Positions 20,797 to 32,687 of a stretch of 64,000 nt of DNA are shown one piece after another (the stretch's first letter is position 1; each line of letters begins with the position of its first letter). The DNA comes from Thermodesulfobium sp. 4217-1. Its GTDB lineage: Bacteria > Thermodesulfobiota > Thermodesulfobiia > Thermodesulfobiales > Thermodesulfobiaceae. Made by a program: the position numbers and the translations under genes. The notes beneath the pieces were generated by a model, which had not been told where the DNA came from, did not search any database, and worked only from the letters and a program-made list of their open reading frames with translations. The stretch spans positions 1 to 64,000 of the forward strand of contig NZ_JBAGBW010000002.1 in assembly GCF_039822205.1 (NCBI RefSeq). The letters are read 5' to 3'.

Positions 20797-20824
20797 TTGA
20801 CATTAGAAAATTTTTTGATATATT
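20797..20824 (+). promoter_or_regulatory. promoter of the TonB-dependent receptor gene
   Basis: TTGACA (20797-20802) and TATATT (20819-20824) with 16-bp spacing. The predicted transcript starts near 20831 and has a leader of about 125 nt containing the hairpin element. Confidence 0.55.
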
Positions 20825-20902
20825 AAAATAAGATTAAAATTTTATTAGAAAATGTCCTAAATGAATTAGGGCGCTTTTAAATTTATTAAATTTAGCATTA
20901 AA

Positions 20903-20940
20903 GCCATGAAGGCTTCTTGTCTTCATGGCTTATTTTTTTA
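20903..20940 (+). promoter_or_regulatory. leader hairpin element, copy A (receptor gene)
   Basis: GCCATGAAG (20903-20911) pairs perfectly with CTTCATGGC (20921-20929), followed by TTATTTTTTTA and then the ribosome binding site. The shape is that of an intrinsic terminator placed in a 5' leader. Two relatives precede exbB and the cooC-like gene. Confidence 0.65.
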
Positions 20941-20957
20941 AGGGAGGTAGAGGATAT

Positions 20958-23045
20958 TTGTTTATTGTATTTGTTTTTTTGTTTTTTGCTTTTTTTTATT
21001 CAGGTTTGGCAGAAATTGGATTTTGTGATGATTCTTCCCAGTTTCAAGAGATTGTAGTCTACGGGAGCAAGGAGAAAGAGAAGAATGCAGATGTGGTAAA
21101 CGTATTCAAGGTAAACCCTGCTATGAGCTTTTCCATTACTGATTATCTTAAGGATATGGCAGGAGTAGAGATCTCAGAAAAATCTCTTCTGGGAGACACG
21201 GGCGATGTGGTTAAGATCAGAGGTTTTGGAAGTAACAGATTGAAAGTATTTGAGAATGGAAGAGATATCAATGCCACAGGCGTCTATGGCGGCTTTTATG
21301 TGGACTGGAGCACTATACCGCCAATAAACGTTGACTCTATTAAGGTTGTAAAAAGCGGTGTGGACGCTAAGCTCGGAGTTTTAGGCGGTGCAGTAGAGAT
21401 TAAGAATAGAGTTCCGACTGGCACGCCGATAACAGAATTTTTTGGTTCATACGGCACAAGGGATACTCAAAATTATAGGTTTTATTACGAAAACAAGATA
21501 AAGGATATACCCTTCAATATTTCTATCGATCATCTCTCCTCTGACCCATTTTTAAGAAACAACGATTTTCTCTCAAACTCATTTAACTTTTCCACGGTTA
21601 TCCCAAACGTTTTTGATGGTCAAATTAATGCCTCAGTTTATTATACAAAGGTAAAAAGAGGCCTTATAGTAAGTAATAGAAAATCAAATGATCCTCAAAA
21701 CCCATTGTGGAATGTCCCCATAGATCCATCATATTCTACATCACTTGGAGAATTTATGCCTCCCGGTGGGGGACCTACAAGGACGCCCGTAATGGGCGCT
21801 TACTGGCAAAAGGAAAAGACTCTTCTGGATCTGTCGTATGAACGAGAAATATTTGGCTGGAAAGCTAAGGTCGCAGGTTTTACAAATAGAGAAGATAGAT
21901 ACGAGGTAAATCCTGGGCTTCTTATAAGGGATCTAAAGCCTGATAAGACCGATGGATTCTATATGGATTTTAGTAGGGATATTTCAAAGCACCACGTGAG
22001 ATTTGGCTATTACTTTAAAAATCAGGGCTCAGGGGACACATTTATAATTTACGAAAAAACAAACCCTGCCACATACAATCAAGATAGCCCATCGAGTCAG
22101 AAGATAATTTACAATTCAGCATATCTTGATGATAGATTTAAGATATCAAAGAAATCATCTCTTTATATGGGCGTAAGGTATGATAGCTTTCACGCAGAGG
22201 GAGCGCCTATATTACAGGACGGGAGAGGAACTTATGTACAGGGCATATCGCTAACTGGCGATGCGATCACTCCAAGAATAAGCTTAGACTACGAGCTAAC
22301 TAAAAACGACACCGCAACGCTTTCAGTCTTCAAATCTGCAAGGATGCCCACTAATCCTGAATACTACTGGTGGCTTACAGGTTATAGCGGATCAAAGCTC
22401 GCAAATGGCGCTCCTGCACCCGGATATAGGCCAGTAAACTATCTCTTAAGGCCTGAAAAGGAAAACGCAGTAGAACTTGGCATTAAAGGAAAGAGATTCG
22501 GATTTGACTACTCTATTAATGGCTATTATTATTCTATTCACGACTATATTATGTTTAGAATTGATCCAAATCCTACAAACAGAGTGGCTTACAACGTAGA
22601 TGAAGTAAATATGTATGGAGCTGAAACAACGCTTAAAAAGAGAATAAAGGGCATTGATACAGTGTTCACTTATACCTATCAAAGAAGCACAAAGGTTAAC
22701 GATGCGCTTGACACCCAGCATCTGTTAAACGGTTTGGGCTATTTTCCAAGAAGTATGGCAAATTTAACCTTTCAGAAAAAATTTGATAATGGCTTAATTT
22801 TAGATTTTGACAATCACTACGTATCAAAGCAAAATTTGCTGTATGCACCAAATAGCAGTAAGCTTGAGCTTGTTTCGATAAAGCCATATTATACTGCAGA
22901 CCTTGGGATATCTTATCTAATACCAAAGCACGACCTAAGAATGGATCTAATGTTCTATGATATTTTTAATAAAAAGTATCAAGAGGTATTTGGGTATCCT
23001 ATGCCAGGAAGAAGCGTATTTGGATCTCTAACTCTAACTTTTTAA
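20958..23045 (+). CDS. TonB-dependent outer membrane receptor
   Basis: About 695 aa. Signal peptide FIVFVFLFFAFFYSG, then a TonB-box-like EIVVYG, a plug domain (residues about 40-150, with VKIRGFG and LGGAVEI), and a 22-strand-type barrel ending in LTLTF with a terminal Phe. It imports a metal chelate or vitamin across the outer membrane. TTG 20958 is preferred: an ATG at 20925 sits inside the leader hairpin, before the ribosome binding site (GGGAGG). Its substrate is unknown; nearby TonB/ExbBD and an ABC importer suggest a metal complex. Confidence 0.88.
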   Translation: MFIVFVFLFFAFFYSGLAEIGFCDDSSQFQEIVVYGSKEKEKNADVVNVFKVNPAMSFSITDYLKDMAGVEISEKSLLGDTGDVVKIRGFGSNRLKVFENGRDINATGVYGGFYVDWSTIPPINVDSIKVVKSGVDAKLGVLGGAVEIKNRVPTGTPITEFFGSYGTRDTQNYRFYYENKIKDIPFNISIDHLSSDPFLRNNDFLSNSFNFSTVIPNVFDGQINASVYYTKVKRGLIVSNRKSNDPQNPLWNVPIDPSYSTSLGEFMPPGGGPTRTPVMGAYWQKEKTLLDLSYEREIFGWKAKVAGFTNREDRYEVNPGLLIRDLKPDKTDGFYMDFSRDISKHHVRFGYYFKNQGSGDTFIIYEKTNPATYNQDSPSSQKIIYNSAYLDDRFKISKKSSLYMGVRYDSFHAEGAPILQDGRGTYVQGISLTGDAITPRISLDYELTKNDTATLSVFKSARMPTNPEYYWWLTGYSGSKLANGAPAPGYRPVNYLLRPEKENAVELGIKGKRFGFDYSINGYYYSIHDYIMFRIDPNPTNRVAYNVDEVNMYGAETTLKKRIKGIDTVFTYTYQRSTKVNDALDTQHLLNGLGYFPRSMANLTFQKKFDNGLILDFDNHYVSKQNLLYAPNSSKLELVSIKPYYTADLGISYLIPKHDLRMDLMFYDIFNKKYQEVFGYPMPGRSVFGSLTLTF

Positions 23046-23053
23046 TAGTTAGC

Positions 23054-23098
23054 AAAAAGCCCCCCACCATTTTTCTAAGATGATGAGGGGCTTTTTTT
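23054..23098. terminator. bidirectional terminator
   Basis: AAAAAGCCCC...CCAT pairs with ATGATGAGGGGCTTTTTTT. A-run on one side and T-run on the other serve the receptor gene (+) and the convergent BASS transporter (-). Confidence 0.85.
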
Positions 23099-24035
23099 AT
23101 TGATCTATATTTTTGTCTCTGGCGCCCCAGAACCCTGCAAGAGTAGAACCTGAGAGGTTGTGCCACACGCTAAATATTGCACCTGGTAGCGCTGCTATTG
23201 GATTTAGGTGAGCTATTGCAAGAGCGACAGCAAGGGCTGAATTTTCCATGCCTACCTCAAAAGTAATGGCTTTTGCTTTGTAGTGGGGCATCTTGGCTCC
23301 TCTTGCTGCCCAATATCCAAGGGTAAGGCCGAGCAAATTATGCAGAACTACTGCAGCAAAAGCTATTAGAGCTACTGTTGCTAACTTTGCAGCGCTTAGC
23401 CCCACGACTATTGCTATTATGGCTATTATGCTGATCACTGAAATGACAGGAATTATTGTGACTATTTTTTTAATAAAAGTTGGCACAGCCGTTCTAAGTA
23501 TTACTCCAATTGCAATAGGCAAAAGTACTATCTTTAAAATATCAATAAAAAGCCCGTTTGGATCTATTGGGATGAATCTGCCTGCAAGAAATAAGAAGAT
23601 AGCTGGAGTAAGAAGTGGAGCTAAAAATGTGTTTACGCTTGATACTGTAACAGAAAGTGCTGTGTCGCCTTTAGATAGGAATGTCATAACATTTGACGCT
23701 GTGCCGCTTGGGCAGCATCCTACAAGAATCAGGCCAGCAGCGAGTTCGGGAGGAAGTCTAAGAAGCAGCGCAACAGAAAGCGCAACGCCAGGCATCACAA
23801 AGTATCTAATTAAAACGCCTAATAATATATCAAGAGGTCTGGTAAGAACTAATTTAAAGTCATCCAGAGTCAGAGTTAGTCCCATACCGAGCATTATTAC
23901 GCCTAAAAGCCATGGAATCCAGGAACCATAAGGCTTAAAAGGTTCAGGAAATAAAAACGCAACAACAGCAAAAATTACAACCCACAATGGAAAAAGCTTT
24001 GTGATCCAATTGGAAACCCTTTCGAAAAATTCCAT
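23097..24035 (-). CDS. bile acid:sodium symporter (BASS) family transporter
   Basis: 312 aa with about nine to ten hydrophobic helices. Family signatures include GMGLTLTLDDF, LVGCCPSGTASNVMTFLSKG and EVGMENSALAVALA. The match to BASS/PanS-like proteins is clear. These carry organic anions such as pyruvate, pantoate precursors or other carboxylates with sodium. The true substrate cannot be read from the sequence. The ATG follows AAGGAGGG. Confidence 0.85.
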   Translation of the reverse strand: MEFFERVSNWITKLFPLWVVIFAVVAFLFPEPFKPYGSWIPWLLGVIMLGMGLTLTLDDFKLVLTRPLDILLGVLIRYFVMPGVALSVALLLRLPPELAAGLILVGCCPSGTASNVMTFLSKGDTALSVTVSSVNTFLAPLLTPAIFLFLAGRFIPIDPNGLFIDILKIVLLPIAIGVILRTAVPTFIKKIVTIIPVISVISIIAIIAIVVGLSAAKLATVALIAFAAVVLHNLLGLTLGYWAARGAKMPHYKAKAITFEVGMENSALAVALAIAHLNPIAALPGAIFSVWHNLSGSTLAGFWGARDKNIDQ

Positions 24036-24194
24036 TTACCCTCCTTGTGTGCCAGATATTGTAATAAAAAAATATGGTATTTAGTATAAATTATTTTATA
24101 ATATTTTTCTATATTGAAAGATTTACTATTGCAACATCATTTTATAAAATGTGGCTCCAAGCAAGGGTTGGGGGTAAGATATTTAAATCATTTT

Positions 24195-24605
24195 TTAAAG
24201 CTCTTTATACTCTACGTAAGGTTTTATGTCCAGAATGGGCGTCCCATCCAACATATCGAGTCTTCTAACCTTTATTATATTTTCTGATTTCTCCAATACT
24301 TCAAGGACAGAAAATCCTATTGGGTTTGGCCTATATGGCGAACATATACTGAACACTCCTTTTTCTGTATTCATATGAAAAGGCTTTTGAATAAGCTTTT
24401 CGTGAGGGAATGGTGGCGATTTGTGAAAACAAAAAATTACACATATCTTATCTTTTGGCTTTATATCTCTTATTCCATCTTGGTACTCAGGAGAGATAAC
24501 CAGCTCCCCTTCAACATCAGAGACGCTCCAATGCCTGGGAACGCTGGCAGAGTCATTTTTTACATAACCAATTGGCATAAAGTTACATTCAATTTTATTT
24601 TCCAT
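24195..24605 (-). CDS. trmO: tRNA methyltransferase TrmO-like (TsaA domain)
   Basis: 136 aa, single-domain version. PIGYVKND, FCFHKS, FSICSPYRPNPIG and LDMLDGTPILDIKPY are hallmark segments of the TsaA/TrmO beta-barrel that methylates t6A37 in tRNA using S-adenosylmethionine. E. coli TrmO is about 235 aa with an extra C-terminal domain, absent here. The archaeal-type short form is known. Start ATG with GGAGAA nearby. Confidence 0.82.
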   Translation of the reverse strand: MENKIECNFMPIGYVKNDSASVPRHWSVSDVEGELVISPEYQDGIRDIKPKDKICVIFCFHKSPPFPHEKLIQKPFHMNTEKGVFSICSPYRPNPIGFSVLEVLEKSENIIKVRRLDMLDGTPILDIKPYVEYKEL

Positions 24606-24662
24606 AATTTTCTCCTTTTCTTATATATTTTGGAATTATACTCCTCTTTTGTAAAACAAAAA

Positions 24663-25331
24663 TTAATCTTCTAACAAAAATCTAATGGGCAGTATTGCCC
24701 TGGACCTTACAAAAGCTCCATTTTCTGTGGCTGCTCTAAAGGTGGACTCCCTTACTGCTCTTAGGGCAGCCTGTGCAAAATCATCATTTGTGCTCTCTAA
24801 CACCTTAACGCTTATAAGGTGGCCACCTTCGTCGATTAATAGCTCTAATACTACTTTTCCTTCAATCCCCAGTCTTTTTTCTCGAAGGGGATATTCAGGA
24901 ATTATCCTTTTTATGAACTTTGGGCCATCTGATGATCCGAAAGATTTGGAATATATGCTATCACTGGAAATTCTTTGATTGGCGCTTCCCAAGTTATTGT
25001 TGCTCAAAGAACCATTTGAGCTAACTGGATTTGAAGTATTCACAGGCCTGGTTTGAATATAGGATAAGTTTGTTGCGTTTACCGTTTGCACTATCGCTGG
25101 AATTTTTTCGAGACTTTCTTCTGTGATATTTTTTTCCGATGTTTTGGCTTTATCGCTTTTATTGACTTTTTTAGCCGTATCCTTTTGACTTTCTTGAAGA
25201 GAATTTAGACTCATAATAAATATTGGCTCATTCTTTATAATATTAGTAGCTCCCAATAGAAAAACAGTGCCAAAGAGTAGTGAGTGAAATATTATGGAAA
25301 ATATAAAGCTAAGAGAGAACCTTCTATTCAA
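24663..25331 (-). CDS. tonB: TonB energy-transducing protein
   Basis: 222 aa: a cytoplasmic stub, one membrane helix (FIFSIIFHSLLFGTVFLL, with the helix His), a Lys/Ser/Asn linker, and a TonB C-terminal domain (PEYPLREKRLGIEG, VLESTNDDFAQAALRAVRE). It connects ExbBD to the outer membrane receptor. The TTG start overlaps exbD by 4 bp. Third gene of an exbB-exbD-tonB operon. Confidence 0.9.
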   Translation of the reverse strand: MNRRFSLSFIFSIIFHSLLFGTVFLLGATNIIKNEPIFIMSLNSLQESQKDTAKKVNKSDKAKTSEKNITEESLEKIPAIVQTVNATNLSYIQTRPVNTSNPVSSNGSLSNNNLGSANQRISSDSIYSKSFGSSDGPKFIKRIIPEYPLREKRLGIEGKVVLELLIDEGGHLISVKVLESTNDDFAQAALRAVRESTFRAATENGAFVRSRAILPIRFLLED

Positions 25332-25738
25332 ATCCTTTCATCCTTGAGAGTTTCTATGTTGTATCTTTCTATCCCAGCGGCCCTACAGGCATCAATAGCT
25401 TTTACAACGAAATCAAATCGGGTATTCTTGTCTGCACATATTTTTATAATTATATTTGGGTTGTTTGCTTTGAGAGTTCTTAGGGTTTCAGTGATAAGTT
25501 TTGGGTCAGTTTTGCCTTCATTGATAAACATCGTGCCATCGCTTTTTATGGAAAGCGCAATATCTTTTAGGTTTTCTTTTACAACGGCAGTTTTGGCATG
25601 CGGCAAATCAATCGGGATGGCACCCTGGGCTATCAGGGTAGCGGTAACTAAGAATATTATAAGTATGACCAAAACGACGTCTACTAATGGGACAATGTTT
25701 ATTTCTGCTATTTCGTCGTCATGGTTTGGATTGTGCAT
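25328..25738 (-). CDS. exbD: ExbD/TolR-type biopolymer transport protein
   Basis: 136 aa with one N-terminal membrane helix. The conserved Asp lies in NIVPLVDVVLVILIIF, followed by the periplasmic domain with a TLRTLKANNPN segment. It partners ExbB in the proton channel that powers TonB. ATG 25738 is chosen because GAGGAA is about eight bases upstream; the in-frame ATG at 25753 is less well placed. It overlaps exbB by 20 bp. Confidence 0.9.
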   Translation of the reverse strand: MHNPNHDDEIAEINIVPLVDVVLVILIIFLVTATLIAQGAIPIDLPHAKTAVVKENLKDIALSIKSDGTMFINEGKTDPKLITETLRTLKANNPNIIIKICADKNTRFDFVVKAIDACRAAGIERYNIETLKDERI

Positions 25739-26171
25739 CAGTATGTTCCTCATAAATATAGTTTAAATCTCTTGCCTTTCTGACAAAATAGTTGTATGCA
25801 ATTACACAGGGCACAGCAACGAATAGTCCAAGTGCGGTAGAGCTAAGCGCTTCTGCAATGCCATTCATCACCACTCTTACTCCGAAATCTTGTGAAATGG
25901 CAAGATCGTGAAAAGCCTTCATAATTCCAAGCACTGTGCCAAATAGACCGATAAATGGCGCATTGCTGCCCACAGTTGCAAAAAAACCAAGTCTTTTGTT
26001 AAGAGTCGATCTGAGATCAGATGGAGCATAACTAAAGAGCTCTTTCTCAATTTTTCGCATAAAAAATACTTTCTCGACAATAAATGCAACCGATATTACG
26101 CTAAGCACTATTAAGAGCACCAAAACAGGATCCCCACCTACTATTGCAAGATTTAATATTAACTTTGCCAA
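25719..26171 (-). CDS. exbB: ExbB/TolQ-type proton channel protein
   Basis: 150 aa, shorter than typical ExbB (about 200-240) but with three hydrophobic helices and the signature APFIGLFGTVLGIMKAF and AEALSSTALGLFVAVP. It forms the stator channel with ExbD. The frame continues upstream to ATG 26231, but that region is the leader hairpin. TTG 26171 follows AGGAGGG by five bases, so it is the likely start. Confidence 0.9.
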   Translation of the reverse strand: MAKLILNLAIVGGDPVLVLLIVLSVISVAFIVEKVFFMRKIEKELFSYAPSDLRSTLNKRLGFFATVGSNAPFIGLFGTVLGIMKAFHDLAISQDFGVRVVMNGIAEALSSTALGLFVAVPCVIAYNYFVRKARDLNYIYEEHTDAQSKP

Positions 26172-26176
26172 TTTAT

Positions 26177-26234
26177 CCCTCCTAAAAAAATAAGCCATAA
26201 AAACATGTGCAATTTTTGCACAAGCCTTCATGGC
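26177..26234 (-). promoter_or_regulatory. leader hairpin element, copy B (exbB)
   Basis: On the minus strand GCCATGAAG (26234-26226) pairs with TTTTATGGC (26202-26194) through seven Watson-Crick and two G-U pairs. An inner hairpin, TGTGCAA/TTGCACA, lies between. Then come TTATTTTTTTA and the ribosome binding site AGGAGGG. The G-U changes relative to copy A preserve pairing, which points to an RNA structure. Confidence 0.65.
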
Positions 26235-26259
26235 TTTGTCCTAAAACTTTAATTTTATA

Positions 26260-26287
26260 ATTTTAGCAAATTCGATATAAAAGTCAA
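26260..26287 (-). promoter_or_regulatory. promoter of exbB-exbD-tonB
   Basis: Minus-strand TTGACT (26287-26282) and TAAAAT (26265-26260), 16 bp apart. The transcript would start near 26253 and reach the hairpin element within about 20 nt. Confidence 0.5.
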
Positions 26288-26345
26288 ATAAAAATTAACT
26301 TTCTAAATATTTTTTTTGCAGGTCATAAGAGAGTTCTACTACGTT

Positions 26346-26786
26346 CTACAATAAACCTTCAAGTTCTTTTATACTGCTAATTTTGAATATTGCTTTATGA
26401 ATTAAATTTAGTCTCTCTCTATCTGAAATGCTTTTAACTTTGCTCTCTATTTCAGGCGAAATAGCATCAAATTTTGCCTCAATGGCGTTTAACACCATAT
26501 CCTGAGCTTCAAGCAGCATGCCTTCCATCTTACCTTCTCTTTTGCCTCTTAATTCACCTTCTCTTTCGCCTTCCATCTTCCACTTCTTAGTTAAGGTTAT
26601 CAACTCTTCTTCGCCTCCTATCTCTGATATCAAATCTTGTGTTCTTTCTGGACCATAATTTATGGAAACGTAGTTTATTACAATTAAAATATCTTCATTA
26701 TTGATTAGTTTAAAGCAATATACCATAATTTGGTGAAATTTTGTAGTGGATTTATATTTTGCTTTTCTATAAAGTATTTTTATCAT
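26346..26786 (-). pseudogene. Rpn/transposase-like C-terminal remnant
   Basis: 146 codons resembling the C-terminal part of Rpn-family (PD-(D/E)XK, formerly YhgA-like transposase) proteins: VINYVSINYG, then a Glu/Gly/Lys/Arg-rich helix (KMEGEREGELRGKREG) and a helical tail. The nuclease domain that should precede this is missing, and no ribosome binding site is seen at the first Met. It is most likely a decayed fragment. It could still be an expressed small coiled-coil protein. Confidence 0.55.
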
Positions 26787-27038
26787 ACGTTGATAAGACT
26801 ACGCAATAATAATAGGTTTAGATTTGACTTTTTAATAATATAAATGCCTTATTTGTAGGACTTTTCAATGTCTTGATATTTGGCAAGTGTCAAAGAACTG
26901 TATTATCAAAATTAAAAATTTAATGTATAATGAAAAAAATTAAAGAGTTGAACTCTTTTACAAAAAGCCATGAAGGTTACTTAAGCGCATTATATTGCGT
27001 TAGCCTGAGTGGCTTATTTTATTTTATGGAGGTTTAAT
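26787..27038 (+). promoter_or_regulatory. promoter and leader of the cooC-like/ABC operon
   Basis: TTATCA (26903-26908) and a perfect TATAAT (26926-26931) are 17 bp apart. The predicted leader of about 100 nt includes a small near-palindrome (AAAGAGTTGAACTCTTT, 26942-26958) and then hairpin element C. Upstream of 26880 nothing is visible. Confidence 0.5.
26967..27024 (+). promoter_or_regulatory. leader hairpin element, copy C (cooC-like gene)
   Basis: GCCATGAAGG (26967-26976) faces GCCTGAGTGGC (27003-27013). Pairing is GCCAU/GUGGC and AGG/CCU, with a tandem G-A/A-G internal pair in the middle. An inner hairpin AGCGCA/TGCGTT caps it. TTATTTTATTTTA and the ribosome binding site follow, as in copies A and B. 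Confidence 0.6.
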
Positions 27039-27794
27039 ATGCCAAAAATTTTAGTTTGCGGAAGAGGCGGATGTGGTAAGAGCACTCTTACGACAATAGC
27101 TGCGAATACCCTTTCAAAAAAGGGCGAGGTTTTTGTCCTGGATGCCGATGAATCAAATCTTTGTCTTGCTAATATGCTTGGTTTAGATTCTGAAAAGACC
27201 TTGATGGGATATCTGGGCGGTAAGGCTGAGGTAAAAAAGACTCTTTTATCTTTTCTAAAATCAGAGGGTAAAGAAAAGACCCCTATGTTTACAACTGATC
27301 TCACCTTTGAAGACCTGAAAAATTTTTCTTCATGGAAAGACAATATAGGTTTTATCCGAACTGGCAAGATTGAACATGGCATGGAGGGCTGTGCATGTCC
27401 AATGGGCGCAGTAACGAGAGAATTTTTGAAGAAATTAGAAGCTAAAGACGATCAATATGTCTTGGTGGATACTGAAGCTGGAATAGAGCACTTTGGCAGA
27501 GGTGTGCACGAGGCTATAGACTTAGTCTGGTTTGTGATAGAGCCATCATTTGAGTCGGTTTCTCTTTGTGAGAAAACTATAGGATTAATTTCAGAGGGAA
27601 GGCATGCCAAGCCATATAAAGTAATATTGAACAAGGTTAGTGAGGAGAGCAAATTAGAACTTGAGAAGCTACTTACTGAAAAGAAAATAAAAGTTGATGG
27701 ATTCTTGCCCCTTAAGAGCGAGATTTCAAAGGCGAATCTCAAAGGCGAAAAGCTTACTATTGAAGACTCAAATCTTATAAATTCAATCTTGTAA
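27039..27794 (+). CDS. CooC-like nickel-insertion/maturation ATPase
   Basis: 251 aa MinD/CooC-type P-loop ATPase. The N-terminus has RGGCGKST (Walker A, with Cys and Arg where CooC usually has Val and Lys), then DADESN. A CxC motif (GCACPMG) near residue 115 matches the metal-binding pair of CooC1, which inserts nickel into CO dehydrogenase. The segment DTEAGIEHFGRG is also CooC-like. It is the first gene of an operon with an ABC importer, so a link to metal supply is plausible. ATG 27039 follows GGAGG; the longer start at 27009 lies in the hairpin. Confidence 0.8.
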   Translation: MPKILVCGRGGCGKSTLTTIAANTLSKKGEVFVLDADESNLCLANMLGLDSEKTLMGYLGGKAEVKKTLLSFLKSEGKEKTPMFTTDLTFEDLKNFSSWKDNIGFIRTGKIEHGMEGCACPMGAVTREFLKKLEAKDDQYVLVDTEAGIEHFGRGVHEAIDLVWFVIEPSFESVSLCEKTIGLISEGRHAKPYKVILNKVSEESKLELEKLLTEKKIKVDGFLPLKSEISKANLKGEKLTIEDSNLINSIL

Positions 27795-28882
27795 TGAAAT
27801 TTCTAAAGATACTTTTTCTAATAACTACATTATTCTTTCTTTCGGGTTGTGATAATTTAGCTCAGAAAGATAATTATAATTTAACTGTAACCGATGTGCT
27901 TGGAAGGAAGGTCGTCTTGAAAGAGAGGCCAGTAAAAAGAATTGTAGCAATAGGACCTGGTACTCTCAGGCTTATCTCTTATATGGGGCTTGCAGGCTCG
28001 GTAGTAGGGGTAGAGGATTCTGAAAGGGAATGGGATGCTGTCTCAAGGCCATATATTCTTGCATATCCACAGTTAAAGGATTTGCCAGGGATAGGTCAGG
28101 GCGGTCCTCGCCCAAGTCCCAATCTTGAAAGCATCATATCACTAAAGCCAGATGTCATATTCGCTGCATATCTAACGAAGGATCAGGCTGATGCAATTCA
28201 GTCAAAGACAAACATACCTGTAATATTGCTTAGCTATGGTCAATTTGCCAGCTTTGATATGAACGACATATTTAATTCTTTAAGAGTTATAGGTGAGGTT
28301 TCAGGAAGCTCTGATAGGGCAGATCAGCTAATCTCATATATAAAAGGCATAGAAGAAGACCTAAGAAGTAGAACGAAGAATATTTCATCTGATGAAAAAC
28401 CGAGCGTTTATGTGGGAGCACTTGGTATGGCTGGCGTTCACGGGATTGAGAGCACTCAGGCAGGGTATCTCCCTTTTACTCTGATTAACGCGAAAAATGT
28501 TGCAGATGAAATAAAGAGTGCGGGCAGTCTGATGCTGGACAAGGAATATCTGATAAAGTTAAATCCTGACATTATATTTCTTGATGAAGGGGGATTATCC
28601 CTGGTAAAAGAAGACTATAAAAAGAACAGGGCTTTTTACGATGAATTAAAGGCATTCAAGAACAACAAAGTTTATGGGCAGCTGCCTTTCAACTACTATA
28701 CTACAAATATAGAGATAGCTCTGATAGACACTTACTTTGCTGGAAAGGTTATCTATCCTGAGAGATTTTCTGACATAAATATCAATGTAAAAGCAGATGA
28801 GATATTTAAAGAATTTTTGGGCAAACCGATGTTTAATGATATTGTGAAAAATTATCCAGGGTTTATAAGAGTAGTTTTTTAG
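27794..28882 (+). CDS. ABC importer substrate-binding lipoprotein
   Basis: 362 aa. The lipobox is FFLSGC with Cys19, so it is anchored to the outer face of the inner membrane. DVLGRKVVLKERPVKRIVAI is typical of periplasmic binding proteins for iron chelates and cobalamin (BtuF/FepB class), as is PDVIFAA. The start overlaps the previous stop (TAATG). The bound ligand is unknown; iron, nickel or a chelate are all possible given the CooC-like neighbour. Confidence 0.85.
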   Translation: MKFLKILFLITTLFFLSGCDNLAQKDNYNLTVTDVLGRKVVLKERPVKRIVAIGPGTLRLISYMGLAGSVVGVEDSEREWDAVSRPYILAYPQLKDLPGIGQGGPRPSPNLESIISLKPDVIFAAYLTKDQADAIQSKTNIPVILLSYGQFASFDMNDIFNSLRVIGEVSGSSDRADQLISYIKGIEEDLRSRTKNISSDEKPSVYVGALGMAGVHGIESTQAGYLPFTLINAKNVADEIKSAGSLMLDKEYLIKLNPDIIFLDEGGLSLVKEDYKKNRAFYDELKAFKNNKVYGQLPFNYYTTNIEIALIDTYFAGKVIYPERFSDININVKADEIFKEFLGKPMFNDIVKNYPGFIRVVF

Positions 28883-28886
28883 ATTT

Positions 28887-29936
28887 ATGGATAAAAAAGA
28901 CATCTTAAAGAGTTATAGAAGCTATTATAAGAAAAAGATCTTTGTTTTAATATTGCTTTTTCTTATGTCTTTGCTTTTTATAATATTTTCTACAAAAATT
29001 GGCACATTTAACCTAAGTTTTTCAGATATTATTAATTCATTTTTCAACCCAAATTCGAGAGAGGGCACAGTCTTGTTTAATGTGCGCTTTCCAAGAATAG
29101 CTTCATCTTTTGTGGCGGGATTTGGCCTTGCAATAGCAGGCTGTGTGATGCAAAACGTTTTGAGAAATCCGCTTGCATCGCCTTTTACACTGGGCGTTTC
29201 TCAGGGGGCAGCGTTTGGCGCTTGTGTAGGGATAGTACTATTGGGGCAGGGCTCTCTTGGGACGAATATTATTATTAGTAACCCCTATTTCGTTACTGCT
29301 TGTGCATTTGTAGGGTCTCTCATATCTACCTTTACAATAATATTCCTTGCAAGGTTTAAAGGTTTTAGCCCTGAGTCTATAGTTCTTTCGGGAGTTGCTC
29401 TTGGGGCACTCTTTTCTGCCATGATCATAATGCTTCAGTATTTTTCAAATGAAGTTGCAGTGACCAGCATGGTGTTTTGGACATTTGGAGATGTGGGTCG
29501 CGCCTATTGGAACGAGATTTTGATGATGGCTATTGTGGTAGCTTTTTCTTTAGTATATTTTTTACTTAACAGTCTAAACTATAATGCTATGCAAATAGGC
29601 GATGAGAGCGCTAAGGGTTTGGGCATTAATGTTGATAGAATAAGATTTGTTTCAATGATAGTGTCTTCTCTTATAACTGCAGTGATAGTTTCTTTCCTGG
29701 GAATAATAGGTTTTGTCGGATTGGTAGCACCTCAGGCAATGAAGAGAATGATAGACTTTGATCACAGATTTATTTTGCCAGCCAGTGCCTTGTCGGGGGT
29801 AATTTTGCTAATAATAGCTGATATTGTCAGCAGAACAATTTTGTCGCCTGTACTCTTGCCCATTGGGGCAATAACATCGTTTTTGGGAGCGCCCTTTTTT
29901 ATTTATATCTTATATTTAAAAGGAAAGATCAAGTAA
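28887..29936 (+). CDS. ABC importer permease, FecCD family
   Basis: 349 aa with about ten membrane helices. Signatures: RFPRIASSFVAGFGLAIAGCVMQ, NPLASPFTLGVSQGA and GFVGLVAPQ in the coupling-helix region. These place it in the BtuC/FecCD permease family for iron-siderophore, heme or cobalamin uptake. It lies between the binding protein and the ATPase, and its stop overlaps the ATPase start. Confidence 0.92.
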   Translation: MDKKDILKSYRSYYKKKIFVLILLFLMSLLFIIFSTKIGTFNLSFSDIINSFFNPNSREGTVLFNVRFPRIASSFVAGFGLAIAGCVMQNVLRNPLASPFTLGVSQGAAFGACVGIVLLGQGSLGTNIIISNPYFVTACAFVGSLISTFTIIFLARFKGFSPESIVLSGVALGALFSAMIIMLQYFSNEVAVTSMVFWTFGDVGRAYWNEILMMAIVVAFSLVYFLLNSLNYNAMQIGDESAKGLGINVDRIRFVSMIVSSLITAVIVSFLGIIGFVGLVAPQAMKRMIDFDHRFILPASALSGVILLIIADIVSRTILSPVLLPIGAITSFLGAPFFIYILYLKGKIK

Positions 29937-30682
29937 TGTTCATTCAGGCTAAGGACGTAAGGTTTTCGTATAATAGCGTTGACGTATTAAAAGACGTAAG
30001 TTTTCACATAGAAAAGGGCGATCTTATAGCAATTCTTGGCAATAACGGAGTGGGTAAGTCTACTTTGATAAAGTGTATAAATAGAATTCTTAAACCAAAA
30101 TTTGGAACAATATTGATCGAGGGACAAGATGTAGAAAAATTAGGTTCTGAAATTGCAAAAAAGGTTTCTTACGTTTCTCAGCGAAATCAAGCTACCAGGC
30201 TTACGGTTTTTGATGCAGTGCTATTGGGGAGAAGTCCATACGTTACATGGGGGATATCAAATAGAGATCTTGAAATTACAAAAGGGGTTATAGAAATGCT
30301 TTCTCTCCGAGAAATTTCGATGAGATTTGTGGACGAATTAAGCGGCGGAGAGCTTCAAAAGGTGATAGTTGCAAGGGCATTGGTTCAAGAGCCATCGCTT
30401 ATTCTTTTGGATGAGCCTACAAATAATCTGGACATAAAGAGTCAGATTGAAGTGATGAACATTATCAAGCAAATTGTGCAGGAAAAGAAAATATCAAGTC
30501 TCATGGCTATACACGACATAAATCTTGCGCTTAGATTTATAGACAAATTTATTTTGATGAAAGATGGAAAGATATTTTCCTCAGGGGGGTTAGAAATTAT
30601 AACTGAAGAAAACTTTAGTGAGACCTTTGGGGTTCAGGTAAAGGTTAAAAATATAGATGGCAGGCCATTTTTAATATTTTAA
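29936..30682 (+). CDS. ABC importer ATP-binding protein, FecE/BtuD family
   Basis: 248 aa. Walker A GNNGVGKST (about residues 36-44), signature LSGGELQK, Walker B LILLDEPTNNLD and the switch His in AIHDINLA are all intact. It powers the FecCD-type permease. The ATG overlaps the permease stop. Confidence 0.94.
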   Translation: MFIQAKDVRFSYNSVDVLKDVSFHIEKGDLIAILGNNGVGKSTLIKCINRILKPKFGTILIEGQDVEKLGSEIAKKVSYVSQRNQATRLTVFDAVLLGRSPYVTWGISNRDLEITKGVIEMLSLREISMRFVDELSGGELQKVIVARALVQEPSLILLDEPTNNLDIKSQIEVMNIIKQIVQEKKISSLMAIHDINLALRFIDKFILMKDGKIFSSGGLEIITEENFSETFGVQVKVKNIDGRPFLIF

Positions 30683-30696
30683 ATTCGGGAGGCAGG

Positions 30697-31293
30697 ATGA
30701 ACAGCGTAGCCTTTTTTGATAGATTATCTGAGGAATGGGACGATATATTTTCAAGAGGAGATATAAACGTCCTGGAGAGGGGGCTTGAACTTGTTAATTG
30801 GAATTCGTTTACAAGGGTGTTAGAAGTTGGATGCGCTACTGGAATAGAAACTGATTTTATTCTAAAAAGGCTAAAGCCTGACGCTCAGTTGTTTGCAATT
30901 GACGTTTCTGCAAAGATGGTTGGAAGGGCTATTGAGAGAATACAGGATGCAAGGTTTACGGTTAATATAAAGAATTTCTTCGATGTAGAGGGCATTTTTG
31001 ACCTTATTCTTATGATAAATGTTTTGCCGCATTTGGGGGAGATGGAGGACGTGTTTACAAAATCTTCAAAGCTATTGGACAAAAGAGGTGAAATCTTGAT
31101 ACTGCACAACTCTTCAAGAGAGCACATAAATAGCGTTCATTCAAGAAAAGAAGAGGTAAGAGACCATGTTCTTTTGCCAGTAGAGATAGTCCAGGAGACA
31201 GCAAAGAACCAAGGTTTTTCAATACTACACACAAAGGACGATGAAGAAGGCTATATTCTGCACTTACAACAGTTTACTCAAAGAATTTTCTAA
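30697..31293 (+). CDS. SAM-dependent methyltransferase
   Basis: 198 aa class I fold. Motif I is EVGCATGIETDF, followed by LFAIDVSAKMVGRA and LILMINVLPHL. The last gene of the metal-uptake operon, 14 bp after the ATPase with a GGGAGG site. The substrate is not evident. Similar genes near metal-uptake operons have been proposed to act on the transported compound, but this is speculation. The end abuts the decayed hydrolase sequence. Confidence 0.8.
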   Translation: MNSVAFFDRLSEEWDDIFSRGDINVLERGLELVNWNSFTRVLEVGCATGIETDFILKRLKPDAQLFAIDVSAKMVGRAIERIQDARFTVNIKNFFDVEGIFDLILMINVLPHLGEMEDVFTKSSKLLDKRGEILILHNSSREHINSVHSRKEEVRDHVLLPVEIVQETAKNQGFSILHTKDDEEGYILHLQQFTQRIF

Positions 31294-31505: not shown

Positions 31506-32687
31506 GTGATACTACATAGAACAGTTAAAGTCAAATTGAATATGTTGTCCGAAGAAATCAAACCTACGTTTGAAGCATATACCAGTGCTTACAACTATGT
31601 TTGTCAAATCGGATACCAAGACAGAGACTTTAACAGTGTTTCTTTGCATTATAAAACTTATGAGGCTATGAGGAAGCATTTGCCTGCTCAACTTGTTTGT
31701 TCTGCCAGAGCAAAATCTGCAGAAACGCTTAACTCTATTAAAAAACGATTGAAGAAAAAGCAGAAAACGAATTGTCCTCAAAGTAAACTTTGTTCTATTA
31801 GATACGATGCCCGAAGTTATAATGTGTGGTTTGATAGAAACGAACTCTCTTTGCTCACTGTTAATGGTAGAAAAAAACTTCAAATTTCTATTCCTGATTA
31901 TTTTAAACAATATATTGGTTGGAAGAGAACCTCTGCTGATTTGATGTTGAGGAAAAACAAAGTGTTTTTGTATATTGTTTTTGAAAAAGAAATTGATGAT
32001 TTTGAACCAAATAATATAGTTGTTGGGATTGATAGAGGCATTAACAAACTTGCTGTTACTTCTAACAACCAATTCTTTAGTGGTAAGCATGTCAAAGCAA
32101 TTTCTCATCGTTATTTTGAGATTAGAAGAAAGCTTCAATCTTGTGGCACACCATCGGCGAAAAGACACCTTTGCAGAATATCTGAAAAGGAGAACCGTTT
32201 CAGAACCGATGTTAATCATATAGTCAGCAAACAAATCGTCCAATCCCTTGAACCAGGAACTACTATTGTGCTTGAAGATCTGAAATTGATTAGACAGAAT
32301 GTTCGATTGAGAAAGAAACAACGTAGAGATGTGCATAATTGGAGCTTCTATCAACTTGAACAATTTATTATTTATAAGGCTGCGGCTAAAGGGATCAAAG
32401 TTGATTATGTTGATAGCCATTATACTTCTCAAAAATGCTCCGTCTGTGGTTACACTTCTTGTTCTAATCGCTCCTCTCAAGCTAATTTTAAATGTCAAGA
32501 ATGTGGATTCTCTTTGAATGCTGATTTAAATGCTGCCAGAAACATAAAGCAGAATTATCTGCAACCTAATCTGGATGCTATATGCAAACAGATCGGGCTG
32601 ACCGTCAACCAGCCTATAGTAGCCTTGCAGGAACCGCAACACGAACATTTACAGGTGCCTGTAGGAGCTACAAGCCCCCGACTTTAG
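31506..32687 (+). mobile_element. tnpB: TnpB of an IS200/IS605-family element
   Basis: 393 aa RNA-guided nuclease of the TnpB family. The three RuvC acidic residues are visible (GIDRGINKLAV, VLEDLK, NADLNAARN), and so is the zinc finger CSVCGY...CQECG. The protein appears intact and should be active. No TnpA transposase gene is next to it, so this is a TnpB-only element. The coding end overlaps the right-end hairpin, where the guide RNA scaffold of such elements is encoded. The antisense 328-aa frame is a shadow. Confidence 0.88.

Follow-up and report, generated by a model that had tools for sequence, protein, structure and literature searches.

The window, the whole stretch of 64,000 nucleotides that was analysed, contains a leader hairpin followed by a T-run before a TonB-dependent receptor gene (copy A), exbB (copy B) and a cooC/ABC transporter operon (copy C), which raises the question of whether these leaders are a regulatory RNA and what signal they would serve. 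The original prediction placed this layout at all three sites, where the window sequence indeed contains it, and read it as an attenuation system, run by an RNA element linked to a metal or other ligand and of no recognised class. The ribosome binding site comes after the T-run in each copy. The pattern GCCATGA...GGCTTATTTT has exactly three matches in the 2.0-Mb assembly, all within the window, and the reversed pattern, taken as a control, has 0; a DNA uptake sequence or general repeat was rejected on this count. Folding z-scores against dinucleotide shuffles are −7.5, −5.5 and −4.7 for the three copies. Comparative sequence analysis, as set out below, places these hairpins in an undescribed RNA family spanning several bacterial phyla.

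Three of the region's seven best sigma-70 matches sit immediately 5' of copies A, B and C; the leaders are thus short, the predicted start lying roughly 15–70 nt before the terminator stem. In copy A (forward strand), the putative promoter TTGACA-16-TATATT (20797–20824) matches the consensus at 11 of 12 positions and carries TG before the -10 box. It is followed by a companion hairpin, P1, of the form TGTCCTAA-ATGAA-TTAGGGCG with an NNGAA pentaloop (20853–20873), present in all four species of the genus and altered on both sides of its stem in one of them (G001, ACTCTAA/TTAGAGT). The predicted intrinsic terminator, a 13-bp stem and T-run recognised by folding and sequence, occupies 20901–20939, and its 5' arm can itself fold as a mini-hairpin, P2 (AAGCC-ATGAA-GGCTT, 20901–20915), whose closing pairs covary across copies. 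The receptor gene (20958–23045; Pfam Plug and TonB_dep_Rec) probably starts at a TTG ~11 nt past the ribosome binding site, a start picked from this site and the signal peptide. Copy B lies on the reverse strand, with a putative promoter TTGACT-16-TAAAAT (26260–26287, 10 of 12 matching), a P2 of AAGCC-ATGAA-GGCTT (26222–26236) with the same closing-pair covariation, and a terminator (26184–26236, by folding) made of a 13-bp outer stem with G-U pairs, an inner hairpin (26222–26206) and a T-run. Behind it, exbB (25719–26171, identified by Pfam, TTG start at 26171) heads the gene series exbB-exbD-tonB-trmO-SBF (25753–23097). Copy C, on the forward strand, has a putative promoter TTATCA-17-TATAAT (26903–26931, 10 of 12), a P1 of AAAGAG-TTGAA-CTCTTT (26942–26958) kept in its orthologues, with the loop TAGAA in G003, a P2 of AAGCC-ATGAA-GGTTA (26965–26979), again with covarying closing pairs, and a terminator predicted by folding (26965–27025) with a tandem G-A in its stem, an inner hairpin and a T-run. 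The operon that it leads (27039–31293, forward strand) encodes a CooC-like ATPase, a Peripla_BP_2 binding protein, a BtuC/FecD-like permease, an ATPase and a methyltransferase, and is followed by a TnpB-family gene (31506–32687). The G-U pairs retained in the stem of copy B and the tandem G-A mismatch of copy C had both been described correctly. The broader claim, that pairing is kept while the sequence changes, stood in part: the stems pair, but the three copies share one and the same 5' arm, with the result that on their own they give one-sided changes only, and true covariation becomes visible only once relatives are added.

The genus, probably Thermodesulfobium judging in part by a gene content like that of sulfate reducers, forms a phylum of its own and has three other sequenced species, beyond which the nearest kin share only the domain. 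A first covariance model (R1), built from the three window copies, recovered copies A and B in 4/4 species and copy C in 3/4; in the fourth the contig breaks off inside cooC. A further copy, D, precedes cbiM/cbiQ/ATPase in each of the four species, and copy E, found in one (G001), lies ahead of an [FeFe]-hydrogenase operon. Copy F, a doubtful member that follows a tRNA gene, could be no more than a terminator and was excluded from the family. In three genus members a similar hairpin, with a GUCACGAAGAC arm that can likewise fold an ACGAA mini-hairpin, separates a tRNA gene from a gene for an SLH-type exported protein (L069:247-308, L070:3527-3587, L048); this could be a simple terminator or else a sixth family member.

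Outside the genus, R1 matched cooC-like loci of Desulfotruncus, Desulfofundulus, Clostridia, Actinomycetota and others, where the element is mostly 5' of trmO-cooC-ABC or methyltransferase-cooC-ABC gene series. A second model (R2), built from 26 sequences, gave up to 21 matches per genome among the genomes selected by cooC, some of these being one palindrome counted on both strands. Against 386 diverse genomes R2 matched 14, of which 4 belong to the genus itself and 10 lie outside it; genome G287 carries ten matches, and the element occurs in 7 of the 9 genomes of its phylum. The search of related genomes proposed with the original prediction has thus yielded more than 100 further copies in other phyla, which excludes that the window copies stand alone. 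At L152:4448-4583 and L246:1598-2180, tandem and divergent copies lie ~70 to 500 bases apart with the same genes flanking. The first reading knew no matching riboswitch class, and Rfam likewise has none at the element: at the gathering score a tRNA was the sole match in the window, 13 homologous loci gave only cobalamin riboswitches located elsewhere than the element, and a relaxed threshold over seven element loci gave no credible match. A literature search found no description of the element.

The conserved core of the family consists of two structures which compete for the same 5' arm. Two-sided changes occur at 6 of 13 terminator pairs (24 double-changed cells, with 0/500 shuffles as high), and both arms covary. 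The 5' arm is nearly invariant, more than terminator pairing alone requires, and has the form of the mini-hairpin P2, X2-X-CC-AYGRA-GG-Y-Y2. In the P2 seed alignment 97% of cells are paired, with 18 double-changed cells (0/500 shuffles). In a larger set of 85 distinct copies, X and Y pair in 81, against a mean of 68.5 and a maximum of 76 after shuffling; for X2 and Y2 the count is 71, against a mean of 44.7 and a maximum of 56. The pairs are G-C, A-U, U-A, C-G and G-U, and the 60 copies that had no part in building the model show the same. Since the X and Y bases have other partners in the terminator, their covariation is specific to P2. The loop reads A-Y-G-R-A in 84/85 copies, and this loop with its CC/GG closing pairs is strongly conserved across several phyla. 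A lack of covariation, which would have told against an RNA, is thereby excluded. P2 and the terminator are mutually exclusive, both are conserved, and the terminator precedes the first gene, which is the architecture of a predicted transcription attenuator. P2 (−2.7 to −5 kcal/mol) is far weaker than the terminator (−20 to −25 kcal/mol) and would therefore need help or kinetic trapping. The first reading had missed both this pentaloop mini-hairpin, which covaries and cannot coexist with the terminator, and the nickel connection of the genes behind it.

Many copies have, besides P2, another hairpin whose loop is (N)NGAA, either 5' of P2 (P1) or inside the terminator (P3). P1 is found in 34/85 copies vs 4.6 expected and P3 in 37/85 vs 1.3 expected (max 6), and 7 of 9 copies with a short terminator loop have the upstream companion. 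In a further independent phylum the figures are 8/23 vs 1.4 expected for P1 and 7/23 vs 0.75 for P3. Of the first 85 copies, 24 have neither form, as do about half of the 23 later ones, and window copy B is without an (N)NGAA companion in most species. As the enrichment is weaker in the later phylum, the companion is common rather than defining.

These features, together with the genes discussed below, probably describe a transcription attenuator in which P2 is held by a reader when nickel is scarce. RNA polymerase would transcribe a short leader ending in an intrinsic terminator just 5' of the ribosome binding site, and the 5' arm of this terminator would alternatively fold as P2, often alongside P1 or P3. 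At low nickel a reader, most likely a protein, would bind the loops as ANTAR proteins bind theirs and hold P2, so that the terminator is blocked and genes for uptake or for substitutes are switched on; with sufficient nickel the terminator would prevail. Structure and regulon are well supported by the comparisons; the direction of control, on at low nickel, is suggested by the target genes, and the loose arrangement of the hairpins favours a trans-acting reader, presumably a protein. The attenuation proposed at the outset is hence supported by the copies, the covariation, the absence from Rfam and the target genes. Regions around independently found copies were inspected for a common RNA-binding regulator, and none stood out. 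Two further arrangements were rejected on inspection, namely a leader peptide from the AUG of the 5' arm, as the frames differ in length and content between copies and mostly have no ribosome binding site, and a cis antiterminator complementary to the 5' arm, none being seen upstream in A, B and C.

A simpler account would treat the copies as ordinary terminators or repeats which share sequence and regulate nothing. The element is terminator-shaped, A, B and D each come after a co-directional gene, and F follows a tRNA gene, yet C and E stand behind divergent genes with promoters in between, so that copy C does not serve an upstream gene as its terminator; copy A has a promoter match of its own, which makes it unlikely to be merely the terminator of the preceding operon. 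With arms structurally conserved across phyla and functionally coherent target genes, this account is highly improbable. A palindrome bound by a repressor as DNA, with no role for the RNA, would fit the near-perfect palindromes of some copies and their matches on both strands. The distance between half-sites however ranges from ~6 to >30 bp, one-sided changes preserve G-U pairing, X-Y covariation is confined to one half-site, and T-runs and then ribosome binding sites come after, all of which leaves a DNA operator with hardly any probability.

Among RNA mechanisms the closest likeness is to ANTAR leaders (eut, nasF, amiE), in which small hairpins with conserved loops stand in tandem and the second overlaps the 5' side of the terminator (Ramesh 2012, PMC3369931), and which serve several operons per genome; here too the mini-hairpin overlaps the terminator's 5' arm. 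Antitermination of the EutV/NasR type recruited to nickel genes would be in keeping with the single REC-ANTAR gene of each genus member, beside a histidine kinase in both loci inspected, and with the presence of ANTAR in 16/18 cooC-selected genomes. Against this, ANTAR is absent from 5/7 independently found element genomes, including G283 (one contig, 100% complete) and G287, and also from G070 and G072, while ANTAR genes in other phyla mostly adjoin glutamine or glutamate synthase. ANTAR leaders bear hexaloops with A1 and G4 in both hairpins and control ethanolamine, nitrate and amide genes, whereas the element has a loop of five bases, AYGRA, closed by CC/GG pairs, a variable spacing, a companion that can be inside the terminator, and metal genes behind it. 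The five genomes without ANTAR and the nitrogen-gene neighbourhoods rule it out as the general reader, and its recruitment to nickel genes is very unlikely. Alternatively the RNA itself might bind nickel or a nickel compound and shift the balance between P2 and terminator with no protein; it would then be a multi-phylum class whose AYGRA mini-hairpins sense nickel, or a nickel cofactor, directly, and which would replace NikR and be the first RNA governing nickel import. The strong conservation of loop and closing pairs in several phyla and the failure to find a universal protein partner speak for such a riboswitch; however, a partner hairpin whose place (5' or within the terminator) and distance vary, and which some copies lack, is unlike a compact aptamer, and the predicted starts of copies B and D, only ~10–20 nt 5' of P2, leave little room for one. 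Direct sensing is accordingly unlikely, as is the class so defined. Of the REC-ANTAR response regulators of the genus, one to each genome, that at L117:1459-3152 lies beside a kinase-like gene.

An attenuator held by a reader still requires a signal, and the genes behind the element mostly concern nickel uptake, use or sparing. In the 10 genomes outside the genus, targets comprise TonB receptors, a barrel protein with CbiM, ExbB, a NikA-like binding protein, LarE-LarB(-LarC), for which the element-led genes score 330 bits (LarE) and 256 bits (LarB), and a methyltransferase with TonB beside CbiQ/O; three matches have no clear target. In the phylum of G287 they are TonB receptors, FmdE, DUF3842 and DUF4198 proteins, a ChlI-like ATPase, a methyltransferase and a histidine-rich 73-residue protein. 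CbiQ is also among the genes behind copies; it and the other names that were not profile-scanned, including DUF4198, FmdE and the histidine-rich protein, were assigned by eye. A few element matches stand before unrelated genes. NikR_C has no match in the four genus members or in 22/25 other element genomes, and marginal ones (21–26 bits) in the remaining 3/25. From larBE, the NikA-like and DUF4198 proteins, the [FeFe] hydrogenase and the mostly missing NikR, nickel is likely to be the signal; some room is left for cobalt, which the CbiM, BtuC-like and CobN genes would fit too.

The regulon resembles that predicted for NikR in delta-proteobacteria, which covers nikMQO and an [Fe] hydrogenase (Rodionov 2004, PMC545781), that is, Ni/Co ECF transporters and a nickel-free hydrogenase in sulfate reducers. 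NikR differs in being a DNA-binding repressor with fixed-spacing operators, in place of which there is here an RNA leader in genomes with NikR absent or marginal. Cobalamin riboswitches often control BtuFCD and CbiM-type transporters and lie near several cooC-like loci, but they occur separately from the element within the same genomes, e.g. G283 and G287, and none was found in the four genus genomes (G000–G003). The NiCo (czcD) riboswitch is a four-way junction that switches on metal efflux genes. It too is an RNA element linked to nickel and cobalt, whereas the present element stands before uptake genes, has no junction and gives no credible Rfam match. An attenuator of this kind would explain the control of nickel import, and the choice between nickel and nickel-free hydrogenases, in many anaerobes without NikR (sulfate reducers, Actinomycetota and others). 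It would imply an undiscovered RNA-reading metal sensor or else a nickel-uptake riboswitch, and would provide a sequence mark for annotating DUF3842, FmdE-like, TrmO-like and CooC-like proteins as products of nickel genes.

Several proteins encoded near copies merit mention in their own right. The exbB-tonB gene series of the window includes a short TrmO-like protein (24195–24605); since TrmO-like genes turn up again in operons led by the element in other phyla, this protein may act in metal uptake and not on tRNA. A larE-larB-larC operon, for the nickel-pincer cofactor, is led by the element at L253:5563-8319. The 73-residue histidine-rich protein encoded 3' of the element in L277 is probably nickel-binding. 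Tetrapyrrole-methylase-like proteins with signal peptides, and a CobN-like protein, occur with TonB receptors adjoining element copies (L246:12798-13703, L247:3697-4566, L255:1227-7050), a hint of extracytoplasmic metal chemistry of the tetrapyrrole type.
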